Shown here: positions 39,374 to 43,390 of the stretch, one piece after another
How positions within the stretch are numbered: position 1 is the stretch's first letter
Layout of the letters: each line of letters begins with the position of its first letter
Assembly: GCA_016932615.1 (NCBI GenBank)
Contig: JAFGCN010000017.1
Coordinates: 1 to 49,270, forward strand
DNA: 49,270 nt
Direction of reading: 5' to 3'
From: Candidatus Aenigmatarchaeota archaeon
Lineage (GTDB): Archaea > Aenigmatarchaeota > Aenigmatarchaeia > QMZS01
The notes under the pieces: generated by a model
Seen by the model: the letters and a program-made list of their open reading frames with translations, nothing else
What the model was told of the DNA's origin: nothing
Databases searched by the model: none
Position numbers and translations under genes: made by a program

Positions 39374-39396
39374 GGGTTGTTTTGCCTCTGCGGGGA

Positions 39397-39441
39397 ATTT
39401 CGCTTCAACCCCCTGCCTTAGGGTTATTTGAGGGCTGTTTT
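39397..39441 (-). other. tRNA-Arg intron 2 (T-loop, position 59/60)
   Basis: 45 nt. Cuts after TTCGAA and before TCCCCG restore the 7-nt T-loop TTCGAAT. The central helix TTCG/CGAA is perfect and an internal stem CAGCCC/GGGTTG closes the intron. Confidence 0.75.
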
Positions 39442-39463
39442 TTCGAACCCCGGATCACCTCCT

Positions 39464-39535
39464 AGCTGCCATTTGATTCCAAGAAATTTTTTCTTGGGGT
39501 TGTCAGACCTTTAGCCAATTAAGCTGAAGGGATGA
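39464..39535 (-). other. tRNA-Arg intron 1 (position 37/38), repeat copy B
   Basis: 72 nt. The 5' site is GG|T and the 3' site CT|A, separated by a CTGC/GCAG helix. Its core AAAGGTCTGACAACCCC (39512-39496) is nearly identical to part of tRNA-Gln intron 2. Confidence 0.8.
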
Positions 39536-39610
39536 CCGCAGGGAAGCATGTTATCCACTACACTACAGAGGCATAAATTTATTGCCTGAAAATTGATTAA
39601 ACGTGCAAAT

Positions 39611-40339
39611 TCAGCTCGCTTGACTGTTTGCAAGGCCCGCAAGAGGGTCAGTAGGGGTGTTTTCGCTTTCAGACCTCTCGATTTCCTTTTTTATTTCCTC
39701 CATTTCCCTGACATCTATATCGATGTCTTCGAATATAATTTCCTGGTGGACAGAAACCTTCTGCTGGTTTGCCAGGTGAAGCATGGCGACAAAATACTTT
39801 GCAGACTCCAGCTGCTCTTTTCCTTTTGTGATGGTGTAGTAGGTAGTTTTCCTTATTTTTCTTAGCTCCCTGTAGACCCTGTCGACATAGTTGTCTATGT
39901 CAAGCTCCAGGAGCTTTTTTATGTTCTCGATTTTGTGCTCCTTGTTTATGCGTATTTCTTCTTTTACCTGCGTGTCCTTTACAATCTTTCCAAGGGCGTA
40001 AGTAAGCTCTTCGAAGGTGATGTTTCGCACAGGTATTCTCTTGATAGGCATTTCAAGCAGGTTGATGCCGTTTATGTCAAGAACTTCCGGGATTCTTTCC
40101 TGGACCGGCTTTTCCATAAGCGTTTCTGACTTCATCCTGAGAAGGACTGCTGAGATGAGTATAAACCTTGCCGGAATCCTGAAGTTTATGGTCTCAAGCT
40201 TTGAAAGGTGCTCTACAAGGGCTTCGGAAAGCACCACAATGTTTATGTTCCAGAGGTCCATGCCTTTTTCGAGCACTATTTCTTTCAGGGCGGACTCCCA
40301 GTCGGAACCATTGACTATCAAATCCAGAACTTTGTCCAT
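39611..40339 (-). CDS. scpA: Segregation and condensation protein A (kleisin)
   Basis: A 242-residue protein. I use the ATG at 40339 (MDKVLDLIVNGSDWESALKEIV); the longer frame upstream is antisense to another gene. MDLWNINIVVLSEAL and INFRIPARFILISAVLLRMKSETL match the N-terminal kleisin helices, and KYFVAMLHLANQQKVSVHQEIIFEDIDI the C-terminal winged helix that closes the SMC ring. Works with SMC in chromosome compaction; neither smc nor scpB is adjacent. AT-rich sequence about 20 bases upstream is a plausible TATA box. Confidence 0.88.
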   Translation of the reverse strand: MDKVLDLIVNGSDWESALKEIVLEKGMDLWNINIVVLSEALVEHLSKLETINFRIPARFILISAVLLRMKSETLMEKPVQERIPEVLDINGINLLEMPIKRIPVRNITFEELTYALGKIVKDTQVKEEIRINKEHKIENIKKLLELDIDNYVDRVYRELRKIRKTTYYTITKGKEQLESAKYFVAMLHLANQQKVSVHQEIIFEDIDIDVREMEEIKKEIERSESENTPTDPLAGLANSQAS

Positions 40340-40391
40340 AATCAAACATATTTGTATTTTTATGCCATGCTTCTGCGCCGTCTGAGCATTT

Positions 40392-40414
40392 TTGAATATT
40401 CCTAATATATAATA
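40392..40414 (+). promoter_or_regulatory. AT-rich promoter region of the acyl-CoA synthetase beta gene
   Basis: TTGAATATTCCTAATATATAATA precedes the ATG at 40422. The TATA-like GAATATT at about -25 fits a leaderless start better than the stronger block nearer the ATG. Confidence 0.45.
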
Positions 40415-40421
40415 TACCTTT

Positions 40422-40988
40422 ATGGACCTCCTCGAATGCCTTAACTTTCTGAAGGATAACGGAATCAGCATAGCGAGCACTAAGCATGTGCGGGGCATGC
40501 CTGAGGAGTTTCCTGTAGTGCTCAAGGCAAATGTTTTGGAGCACAAGTCTGAACAGAACCTGGTGCGGATTATACACTGCCCTGGGGAGTTTGGCGAGGC
40601 GTGGCACAAGATGGGAAAAACCCAGGACATACTGGTTCAGGAGAGGGTTTCCGGCATAGAGCTGATACTTGGAATACATACGGATGAGACCTTTGGCAAG
40701 GTGATAATGGCTGGGGCAGGAGGCATATTTACCCAGGTCATGATGGACGTTTCCTTCCGTGCAGTCCCGCTAACAAGGCAGGATGCCTCAGAGATGATAA
40801 AAGAGCTTAGGATTTACGAGGTCCTGAAGGGCTTTCGGGGCAAAAGCTATGACTTGTCCCTCGTGGAGGACGCGATACTGAAGCTTTCAGAAATCGCAGA
40901 AAACCACCCTGAGATTAGCAGCCTGGACATTAACCCCTTCATAATCAATGACCGACGGGGCGTGGCAGTTGACTGCAGGATATTTTGA
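40422..40988 (+). CDS. ADP-forming acyl-CoA synthetase beta subunit (ATP-grasp)
   Basis: A 188-residue protein. FPVVLKANVLEHKSE is the ATP-grasp entry strand, VQERVSGIELILGIHTDETFGKVIMAGAGG the signature of the beta subunit of ADP-forming acetyl-CoA synthetase (ACD), and SSLDINPFIIND the C-terminal Mg-binding motif. It makes ATP from acyl-CoA hydrolysis together with an alpha subunit, not seen here. It is somewhat shorter than typical beta subunits; a start further upstream is not supported. Confidence 0.85.
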   Translation: MDLLECLNFLKDNGISIASTKHVRGMPEEFPVVLKANVLEHKSEQNLVRIIHCPGEFGEAWHKMGKTQDILVQERVSGIELILGIHTDETFGKVIMAGAGGIFTQVMMDVSFRAVPLTRQDASEMIKELRIYEVLKGFRGKSYDLSLVEDAILKLSEIAENHPEISSLDINPFIINDRRGVAVDCRIF

Positions 40989-41025
40989 AAGCCCTACTGT
41001 TGTAGTGCTATTGTCACGCTCTTTG

Positions 41026-41038
41026 GTATATTAATAAG
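41026..41038 (+). promoter_or_regulatory. TATA box of the unknown protein gene at 41059
   Basis: GTATATTAATAAG is centred about 27 bases before the ATG at 41059. Confidence 0.6.
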
Positions 41039-41058
41039 CCACCGGAAGGGAGTTTATT

Positions 41059-41655
41059 ATGGCAAAGGCGGTAACTCGGGAAGATGTACTGGATAGGGTA
41101 GCCCTTTTTGGCTTTCCTAGGGTTTCTGGTTTCAGGGAGCCGTTTCCTGTAAGAGAGGGGCTTGGTTTTGTTTTACCCCGGTATGTGGAATATGCTCCCA
41201 GGTATGTGGCAGCGGGAGACGACGTGCTTCAGACGCCAGGTTGCGCCTTGGAGCTTTATCCTGACCTGTCGGGTACCAGGCCTGAATGGTACCCTTATGG
41301 ATTTGACTTTGCCGGTTTGAAGGAGGACAAGTTTCCAAAGGGAAGCGATTTTGATTATGATGTTATTGGTGTGGGAGTAATTGGAGGTTTAATAGGTCCC
41401 GCAAGGACTGCATTTAAGTTTCCTGGAGAAGTCGTAAGAGGGGTAGCACAACTTGAGGGTTTGGATTCAAGCGGCACAACCCTCTACAAAGTGCTTAATT
41501 TTGGCAAAGGAAAAACGCTAGGGGATATACTGCCTACCGTAGAAAAGGTATTGGGGGCTGGAGAGGAACTTGAGAGGATAGCTAAAAGAAGGATTGATGA
41601 ACAGATGCGTGCAGAGGTCAGGTCTGTGGTGGAGGAATTTCAGGACCTTAAGTAG
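41059..41655 (+). CDS. Unknown soluble protein
   Basis: A 198-residue protein, rich in Gly, Pro and aromatic residues in the first half (VALFGFPRVSGFREPFPVREG, RPEWYPYGFDF) and helical at the end (EELERIAKRRIDEQMRAEV). A Gly-rich hydrophobic stretch at about 100-115 (YDVIGVGVIGGLIGPA) might insert in or touch a membrane. No family recognised, no signal peptide. It is transcribed towards the tRNA-Gln region. Confidence 0.6.
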   Translation: MAKAVTREDVLDRVALFGFPRVSGFREPFPVREGLGFVLPRYVEYAPRYVAAGDDVLQTPGCALELYPDLSGTRPEWYPYGFDFAGLKEDKFPKGSDFDYDVIGVGVIGGLIGPARTAFKFPGEVVRGVAQLEGLDSSGTTLYKVLNFGKGKTLGDILPTVEKVLGAGEELERIAKRRIDEQMRAEVRSVVEEFQDLK

Positions 41656-41690
41656 ATTAGGGAGTAGTTTGATGAAATATAGCCCCGCAC

Positions 41691-41750
41691 GGTCAGTCCT
41701 TCTTTCTTAAAAAGAAAGAAGGTCCGACACCACCAAGAAAGAACTGCCCT
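41691..41750 (+). repeat. Solitary copy (C) of the tRNA-intron-related element
   Basis: On the plus strand, GGTCAGTCCTT, an 11-bp hairpin CCTTCTTTCTT/AAGAAAGAAGG, then AAGGTCCGACACCACCAAG. The same order (CCTT stem, AAGGTC-T-ACA-CC block, purine run) occurs in tRNA-Arg intron 1 and tRNA-Gln intron 2. Opposite orientation to the adjacent tRNA-Gln. Confidence 0.65.
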
Positions 41751-41792
41751 CTTTGGCTAAATTGTTAATTTATAGCCCCGCGCGGATTCGAA

Positions 41793-41852
41793 TTCCGCGA
41801 AAAGTTTTCTTTTGGGGGTTGTAAGACCTTTTCTTATCAAGAAAAGGGATTT
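41793..41852 (-). other. tRNA-Gln intron 2 (T-arm, position 53/54), repeat copy A
   Basis: 60 nt. Removing it leaves a 7-nt T-loop; leaving it gives an unusable 9-nt loop beside a second CGCGGAA. Contains AAAGGTCTTACAACCCC (41831-41815), matching tRNA-Arg intron 1 at 16 of 17 bases. Confidence 0.75.
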
Positions 41853-41867
41853 CCGCGGTCACAGGCT

Positions 41868-41915
41868 AGCTTCAATCATTGGCTAAGGATTTCTCCCGCC
41901 TCAAACCTTTGATTT
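41868..41915 (-). other. tRNA-Gln intron 1 (position 37/38)
   Basis: 48 nt, cut GG|A and CT|A, four-base-pair core CTTT/GAAG flanked by AATCA/TGATT. Not clearly related to the other introns. Confidence 0.85.
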
Positions 41916-41977
41916 CCAAAGGCCTGTATGCTTGGCCGCTACACCACGGGGCTATAAAATAAAATACCTTCAAAATT

Positions 41978-42131: not shown

Positions 42132-42231
42132 ATAGTCATTGTTTTTGACAGGATACGGTAAGTGGTCAAACCCTCCAGTTTGTCGAACTGGCGCCTAAGT
42201 GACTTCGTGGGTTCGAATCCCACTCCTTATT
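42132..42231 (+). tRNA. Type II-sized tRNA-like gene, anticodon loop reads GTC, odd 5' end
   Basis: T-arm GTGGG-TTCGAAT-CCCAC is perfect; D-arm GGT-AAGTGGTCAA-ACC and anticodon arm CCAGT-TTGTCGA-ACTGG are good. The loop gives anticodon GTC (Asp), yet the variable region (15 nt, 42198-42212) is as long as in Ser/Leu tRNAs. The acceptor 3' strand TCCTTAT pairs fully only with ATA (42132-42134) plus AGGA (42150-42153), so a 15-nt intron with a GTCA/TGAC stem at position 3/4 may exist. Otherwise the acceptor is mismatched. A decayed gene is possible. Confidence 0.5.
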
Positions 42232-42252
42232 CGATTGCCTAAAGGCTCTTAG

Positions 42253-43275: not shown

Positions 43276-43390
43276 GGGGCGGTAGCTCAGCTTGGGAGAG
43301 CGCACGGCTGAAGCATCCCTGAAAGGGCCAATAGGGTCATTTTGGGACTTAGTTACCGTGATGTCGTGGGTTCAAACCCCACCCGCCCCA
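43276..43390 (+). tRNA. tRNA-Phe(GAA) with canonical intron
   Basis: GGGGCGG...CCGCCCC plus A73. D-arm GCTC/GAGC, anticodon loop CTGAAG|A (GAA), stem CACGG/CCGTG, T-arm GTGGG-TTCAAAC-CCCAC. Exons 43276-43313 and 43355-43390; intron 43314-43354 (41 nt) at 37/38 with core CTGA/TTAG and inner helix TCCC/GGGA. Spliced length 74 nt. Confidence 0.92.

Follow-up and report, generated by a model that had tools for sequence, protein, structure and literature searches.

Introns opening with a common folded cassette in the tRNA genes of an Aenigmatarchaeota archaeon and part of its class

Two interrupted tRNA genes in the window

The 49,270-nucleotide (nt) contig JAFGCN010000017.1 of Candidatus Aenigmatarchaeota archaeon (assembly GCA_016932615.1), analyzed here over its full length and referred to as the window, carries on its minus strand tRNA genes for Arg(GCG) and Gln(TTG), each of which is interrupted by two introns. 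They were identified by a cloverleaf search that allows introns with bulge-helix-bulge (BHB) motifs anywhere in the gene. The finder and its BHB scale were written for this analysis; splice calls scoring below approximately 70, and those placing an intron in the acceptor stem, were dropped as spurious, and all intron boundaries given below are inferred from the BHB motif and the cloverleaf, i.e., from sequence only. The tRNA-Arg(GCG) gene (39383–39572, minus strand) contains a 72-nt intron 1 at position 37/38 (39464–39535), with the BHB helix CTGC/GCAG and bulges GG^T and CT^A, and a 45-nt intron 2 at position 59/60 (39397–39441). The tRNA-Gln(TTG) gene (41773–41953, minus strand) contains a 48-nt intron 1 at 37/38 (41868–41915) and a 60-nt intron 2 at 53/54 (41793–41852), with the BHB helix CCGC/GCGG and bulges GG^A and AA^T. 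ARAGORN recognizes both genes, as tRNA-Arg(gcg) and tRNA-Gln(ttg), only after in silico splicing.

A preliminary description of this sequence had pointed out that Arg intron 1 and Gln intron 2 both start after GG and share the string AAAGGTCT[G/T]ACAACCCC together with a stem of differing but compensated sequence, and had read this as a sign of intron movement within about 2 kb. The coordinates of both introns and their start after GG are reproduced by the splice-aware search, and both the string and the compensated stem are present in each intron. The likeness is confined to approximately the first 47 nt, and the 3′ parts and BHB halves are unlike. This common 5′ unit, here called the cassette, is of the same subtype A in both introns, and no clear cassette is seen in Arg intron 2. 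The proximity of the two genes carries no meaning, as their cassettes are not sister copies and each is closer to other copies: the Gln(TTG) form AAATCCC...GGTCTTACAACCCC is held in common with the 59/60 intron of Gln(CTG) on another contig, and the Arg(GCG) form GTCATCCC...GGTCTGAC with most other copies.

A cassette family across the tRNA genes of the genome

The shared element is confirmed, and it is far larger in extent than first described. The preliminary description had proposed a search for further copies and for significant covariance, and both are found. The string AAGGTCTNACAACCCC has 10 exact occurrences in the whole 1.26 Mb genome, where, by our estimate, chance alone would give well below one exact match of 15 bases, and the family adds more than 20 further copies. 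Nearly all of them are localized inside tRNA genes, where they interrupt the anticodon loop, D loop, T stem, and T loop. A covariance model (R1), built from an alignment of 14 copies with a covarying stem, matches 50 places in the genome at E ≤ 1, of which 14 at E < 2e-11 are its own building sequences. In the window, it matches Arg intron 1 at 39488–39540 (E 1.1e-11; this sequence is one of the 14 builders) and Gln intron 2 at 41807–41857 (E 1.3e-14). Among relatives, which are draft genomes sampled around model and tRNA matches, R1 has matches in 29 of 60 at E ≤ 0.01. Across the class, 36 of 122 genomes match at E ≤ 0.001; these belong to ten families, and several other families have no such match.

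In the genome itself, 18 tRNAs were rebuilt at high score, and every one of them is interrupted (18/18; 29 introns in total). Each contains one to three introns, located mostly at 59/60, 53/54, 37/38, 20/21, and 15/16. ARAGORN recognizes all 18 distinct tRNAs with the expected anticodon once they are spliced, and only 1 of 17 unspliced; hence the boundaries are at least self-consistent. BHB motifs are present at both splice sites, and 23 of the 29 introns score at least 14 on our scale. Almost every tRNA gene in this genome, and in part of the class, has introns that open with one folded cassette. As in other archaeal BHB introns, a 4-bp central helix lies between two 3-nt bulges, and an archaeal endonuclease and RtcB are at hand; unlike archaeal BHB introns generally, all 18 rebuilt tRNAs are interrupted and the introns have a common structured 5′ cassette.

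The splicing endonuclease is represented by one gene (PF01974) with one N-terminal and one C-terminal domain, nearest by sequence to the Methanocaldococcus jannaschii enzyme 1A79; one RtcB was found as well. The M. jannaschii enzyme is a homotetramer, and homotetrameric endonucleases are held to need strict BHB motifs. The endonuclease gene (contig C18, 45567–45839, plus strand) is located on the same contig as five cassettes and encodes a long acidic and lysine-rich N-terminal extension.

Standard tools miss most tRNAs of such genomes: in the whole window ARAGORN reports a single tRNA (Asp at 42147) and Rfam another one (the Phe gene), and Rfam applied to the whole genome yields only 15 places at E ≤ 1. 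No Rfam 15 family other than tRNA, such as group I or II introns, sRNAs, or ribozymes, is matched at the gathering threshold, and E values up to 5 add one match far below the threshold. The tRNA-Phe(GAA) gene (43276–43390, plus strand; Rfam, splice-aware search, and ARAGORN) has a 41-nt intron at 37/38 (43314–43354) that starts with CATCCC. The tRNA-Asp(GTC) called by ARAGORN (42147–42232, plus strand) has a poor acceptor stem, and a second Asp(GTC) gene is found on contig C9 at 96085; the gene in the window may represent a pseudogene or contain an unrecognized intron.

Anatomy of the cassette

The cassette starts a few nt from the 5′ splice site and consists of a helix P1, a small mismatch loop (1x1 to 3x3), a hairpin P2, a linker, and a purine tail. 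P1 is formed by a short arm that is free in sequence and retains its pairing. P2 is a pyrimidine/purine hairpin that starts mostly 3–10 nt past the 5′ splice site, and the linker is often AACCCC. Five subtypes follow this one common plan: A, the type seen in the preliminary description (GTCATCCC...GGTCTGACAACCCC), B (TGAAGC...GCTCCAGGACC), C (TGAACCC...GGCTTCAAGCCC), D (AAAGAC...GTCCTTAACGTC), and E (GTCAGACC...GGCCGACACCTCC). In other families, the P1 arms of type A are ACAAA/TTTGT, GCAAA/TTTGC, ACCAA/TTGGT, and ATCCA/TGGAT, all of them compensated. The P1/P2 covariation score was reached in none of 500 shuffles. Since the same fold occurs with different P1 arms in other families of the class, part of the likeness between the Arg and Gln introns is structural constraint, and likeness alone would not prove movement.

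The cassettes are strictly oriented: among 146 introns, 36 sense and no antisense cassettes were counted. The sense-only orientation and the fixed site near the 5′ splice site favor a role in the transcript. In the long introns of Trp (contig C29, 35461, plus strand) and Leu (contig C18, 48939, plus strand) of the genome, reverse cassette copies are situated in the 3′ half; pairing between these and the sense cassette could form a long rod. At 39534–39536 in the window, and in the introns of this genome generally, P1 can take in the final base of the exon and the bases that open the intron, and hence competes with the BHB bulge and inner helix. This overlap is a possible switch between spliceable and closed states.

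A rule connecting three strands

Copy by copy, the purine tail mirrors the purine strand of P2; read in the direction of the pyrimidine arm, it is that arm's complement, as in the arm/tail pairs TTTCTT/AAAGAA, TTTTCTT/AAAAGAA, TTCTTTCTTT/AAGAAAGAAA, and TTTCTTTCTTT/AAAGAAAGAAA; Gln intron 2 has a 7-nt mirror tail (UUUUCUU ... AAAAGAA). The tail is not a duplex partner, as ordinary antiparallel pairing is not open to a mirror copy. The linker follows the helix as well, its length being equal to the number of base pairs below it minus two (4, 5, 6, and 7 nt for 6, 7, 8, and 9 steps).

In 72 cassettes picked by the linker rule alone, blind to the tail, G occupies 71 of the 73 tail positions at C-G levels, and A 256 of the 264 at U-A levels, whereas permuted tails place G at C on average 25.8 times and at most 39 times in 2000 trials. 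Hairpins outside the linker rule have no link between tail and arm (odds ratio 1.6). The linker rule, in turn, is kept in 62 of 76 cassettes with a mirror tail (permuted mean 19.6, maximum 33). At 40 fresh loci, from genomes that played no part in deriving the rule, 39 of 41 levels agree (permuted maximum 31, of 10000), and of the two misses one is due to a parsing error. The full rule is matched at 15 distinct sites in the loci of the genome and at none in surrogates of the same DNA. In orthologous Pro(CGG) introns, UUUCU/AGAAA/AAAGA in one relative (G011) corresponds to UUUUCU/AGAAAA/AAAAGA in another (G035), a single insertion being matched on three strands. Less clear results were obtained with a first linker test that still included antisense hairpins (correlation 0.22) and with an out-of-sample count using an automatic P1 caller, where 22 of 37 linkers agreed and most misses appear to stem from an accidental extra P1 pair added by the caller. 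A tail that is a direct, non-mirror copy of the 3′ arm was also considered and gave no signal (8/22 vs. 6.3 by shuffling).

The geometry of tail and arm fits the purine motif, with A.A-U and G.G-C levels and a third strand antiparallel to the purine arm, and the mirror-tail and linker rules are what a third strand along the hairpin would give. The strand following P2 would turn back, so that the linker and the purine tail run from the helix base to its tip, with A placed over U-A and G over C-G. In the tRNA core, isolated A.A-U and G.G-C triples occur in RNA (9-23-12 and 46-22-13). The cassette would contain the same triples, with the same purine/purine covariation, but here 5–11 consecutive levels would stack.

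A pyrimidine arm, a purine arm, and a third purine strand in this order define the class II intrastrand triplex (PMC4666352), which includes the BoxC/PIT elements of Escherichia coli. The cassettes resemble these elements in having a mirror purine third strand and in being repeated in the genome. They differ in being A/U-rich and in having a P1 arm, a helix-tracking linker, a location in tRNA introns, and a single orientation, whereas the BoxC/PIT motifs are found in bacterial DNA, the one studied is G/C-rich, and no tRNAs are mentioned (PMC4666352). It is therefore to be considered whether the cassette folds as a triplex in single-stranded DNA, e.g., in the non-template strand, where the fold would destabilize the locus and drive its own copying, and is a mere hairpin in RNA. 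The strand order and the antiparallel purine strand match the published definition, and the same study reports formation in DNA, ties these motifs to instability and genome rearrangement, and describes the purine-motif triplex as one that does not form in RNA (PMC4666352); the frequent turnover of introns and the free-standing copies beside tRNA 3′ ends (both described below) would fit as well. On the other hand, the cassettes are in strict sense orientation at a fixed place by the 5′ splice site and almost wholly confined to spliced introns, so that this explanation needs a DNA effect linked to transcription. We regard it as a serious, if rather unlikely, alternative.

Evidence of transfer between tRNAs and between positions

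The Gly(TCC) intron at 37/38 and the Val(TAC) intron at 59/60 match at 51 of the 52 nt that follow the 5′ splice site, beyond which the likeness ends sharply; the Thr intron at 20/21 and the Tyr intron at 53/54 are alike at 86 of 107 nt. At the equivalent position 59/60, whole introns of unrelated tRNAs are alike in G025 (Arg and Ser, 135/151), as is a large part of the intron in G008 (Thr and Lys, 84/89). Filled and empty sites are available within one genus. The bodies of Ile(GAT) are identical (75/75) in G004, G005, and G008, all beside the same tRNA-Arg(CCT), and at this locus the intron is present in G004 and G008 and absent in G005. Similarly, Ser(TGA) is uninterrupted in G001 and G003 and contains three introns in G004 and G008 of the same genus. 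Both cases represent recent change among close relatives, by either gain or loss. Given these filled and empty sites and the cross-position likeness, introns are gained and lost, and the cassette moves from one position to another. At the family level, sequence comparison thus supports movement, including copying between tRNAs and non-equivalent positions, as the preliminary description had suggested; the Arg and Gln pair from which this was proposed shares the 5′ cassette and not an intron.

Could the likeness have arisen without movement, from an old functional intron domain that was selected or re-evolved, through constraint and the vertical descent of tRNA duplicates? In at least ten families of the class, the fold is seen with P1 arms of differing sequence, which agrees with this, as do the Gln(TTG) introns, which are found at 37/38 and 53/54 in both this genome and G001. 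It does not explain why P1 sequences are lineage-specific although any complementary arm would do, nor the near-identical whole introns in unrelated tRNAs. The likeness of Gly and Val introns at non-equivalent positions and the identical tRNAs with and without an intron have already largely refuted it, and we consider it improbable.

As to the mode of transfer, whole-intron reverse splicing alone fails in the cross-position cases unless the 3′ part changed later, since only the 5′ boundary is exactly shared, and homologous exchange would suit transfer between equivalent positions. No target-site duplication is evident as a general rule in the introns inspected by eye, and the short flanking repeats seen at some introns (CGCGG, TTCGAA) belong to palindromic stems and loops of the tRNA. 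A different intron family, GGGAACTTTTAGAAAAAGTTCCATCAAAA, has been amplified in one relative (G002; loci L206, L207, and L210), in which Arg, Phe, and Met tRNAs have it in common.

Copies outside tRNA genes

The window also contains a free-standing cassette of subtype E (41688–41742, plus strand), located just 3′ of tRNA-Gln(TTG) and in the opposite orientation. It obeys the full rule with a 9-nt mirror tail, matches R1 at E 4.8e-8 without being among its builders, and is the only full-rule match in the window, with none in 20 surrogates. It is flanked by an imperfect 14-bp direct repeat, read from the sequence, the left copy of which is ATAGCCCCGCACGG (41679–41692, plus strand) and the right copy ATAGCCCCGCGCGG (41772–41785, plus strand; 13/14 identical), the latter corresponding, on the opposite strand, to the 3′ end of tRNA-Gln. 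Both repeats (within 41679–41785) fit ATAGCCCCGC[A/G]CGG, the tRNA 3′ end, as if the cassette had been inserted with duplication of the end of tRNA-Gln. Elsewhere in the genome, two subtype A copies on contig C18 (33928–33992 and 34051–34104, minus strand) are situated outside tRNAs, just 3′ of tRNA-Arg(TCG) and opposite to it, one of them surrounded by CCCGGGCTYAT repeats, and a cassette on contig C27 (70896–70948, plus strand) starts directly at the 3′ end of tRNA-Cys(GCA).

Such copies, one of them with a direct repeat, together with the hairpin near one end and the lack of any protein encoded by the cassette, are what one might expect of a miniature DNA transposon of the IS200/IS605 or a similar type, whose hairpin end is bound by a transposase and whose insertions are hidden by tRNA splicing. 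The Y1 transposase TnpA (PF01797), however, has no match in this 96.9% complete genome, other transposase families not having been searched. The absence of a general target-site duplication, the single orientation within introns apart from a few long ones with antisense copies, and the fact that the unit has just one fixed end also argue against a transposon, as does the IMG/VR database, where searches with two cassette patterns gave no match. We consider this explanation very improbable. A scan of contigs for wider spread of the pattern gave only a probable chance match, in a metagenome-assembled genome of Lentisphaerae, in a search that may have left out the records of this genome itself.

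Proposed model and significance

The best explanation overall is, in our view, that these are BHB tRNA introns bearing copies of one multiplying 5′ cassette, to which we assign a probability of about 0.55. The introns would be cut by the tRNA splicing endonuclease and the exons joined by RtcB, as suggested by the genes and the BHB motifs, and splicing would render the insertions harmless to the tRNA. Copies would be transferred between tRNA genes, probably at the DNA level by recombination, as whole introns between equivalent positions and as the 5′ cassette only between non-equivalent ones. The predicted triple helix may serve as a self-contained fold that keeps the intron clear of the folding of the cloverleaf and BHB. 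That a natural RNA purine-motif triple helix with 5–11 stacked A.A-U and G.G-C levels defines the fold of this mobile cassette and enables its survival and spread is a tentative proposal, to which we give somewhat less than even odds.

Several observations weigh against the model of a spreading RNA cassette and its triple helix. We know of no A.A-U and G.G-C triples in RNA other than the isolated ones of the tRNA core. Few cassettes (5) obey the rule in the genomes G001–G010, and subtype B retains the mirror tail with a linker one nt longer than the rule. In the window, the Arg copy has no mirror purine tail past AAG, its tail pairing into an 8-bp hairpin, and the Gln(TTG) copy has a weak P1. 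Where P1 overlaps the 5′ splice site together with the inner helix of the BHB, splicing would require it to open; antisense cassettes are seen by eye in a few long introns, and free-standing ones exist outside tRNAs. Finally, the purine-motif triple helix is said not to form in RNA (PMC4666352). We therefore treat a triple helix acting in the RNA as a possible reading rather than a settled one.

Similar introns in different tRNAs and positions have been reported in Thermoproteales, the passages on them giving the mechanism as unknown (PMC4090602; PMC4390854), and the gain of an additional tRNA intron has been described in a natural Caldiarchaeum population (PMC3293823). The present family resembles the Thermoproteales case in the near-identity of intron sequences in non-homologous tRNAs and positions, although between non-equivalent positions only the 5′ part is shared. 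It differs in its unit, a defined 5′ cassette that has a conserved fold of its own and follows a sequence rule for three strands, and in offering an empty site whose tRNA body is identical. In the literature on tRNA introns combined with DPANN, triple helix, or introner, from which subscription papers were mostly outside the search, no such cassette is described.

The spread of archaeal tRNA introns has been unexplained since their transposition was proposed, and there is now a concrete object on which to test it. The moving unit can be named, its fold can be deduced from rules in the sequence, and identical tRNAs are found both with and without the intron, which makes mechanisms testable. The predicted three-stranded fold would be either new for RNA or a link between DNA triplex motifs and the spread of introns.
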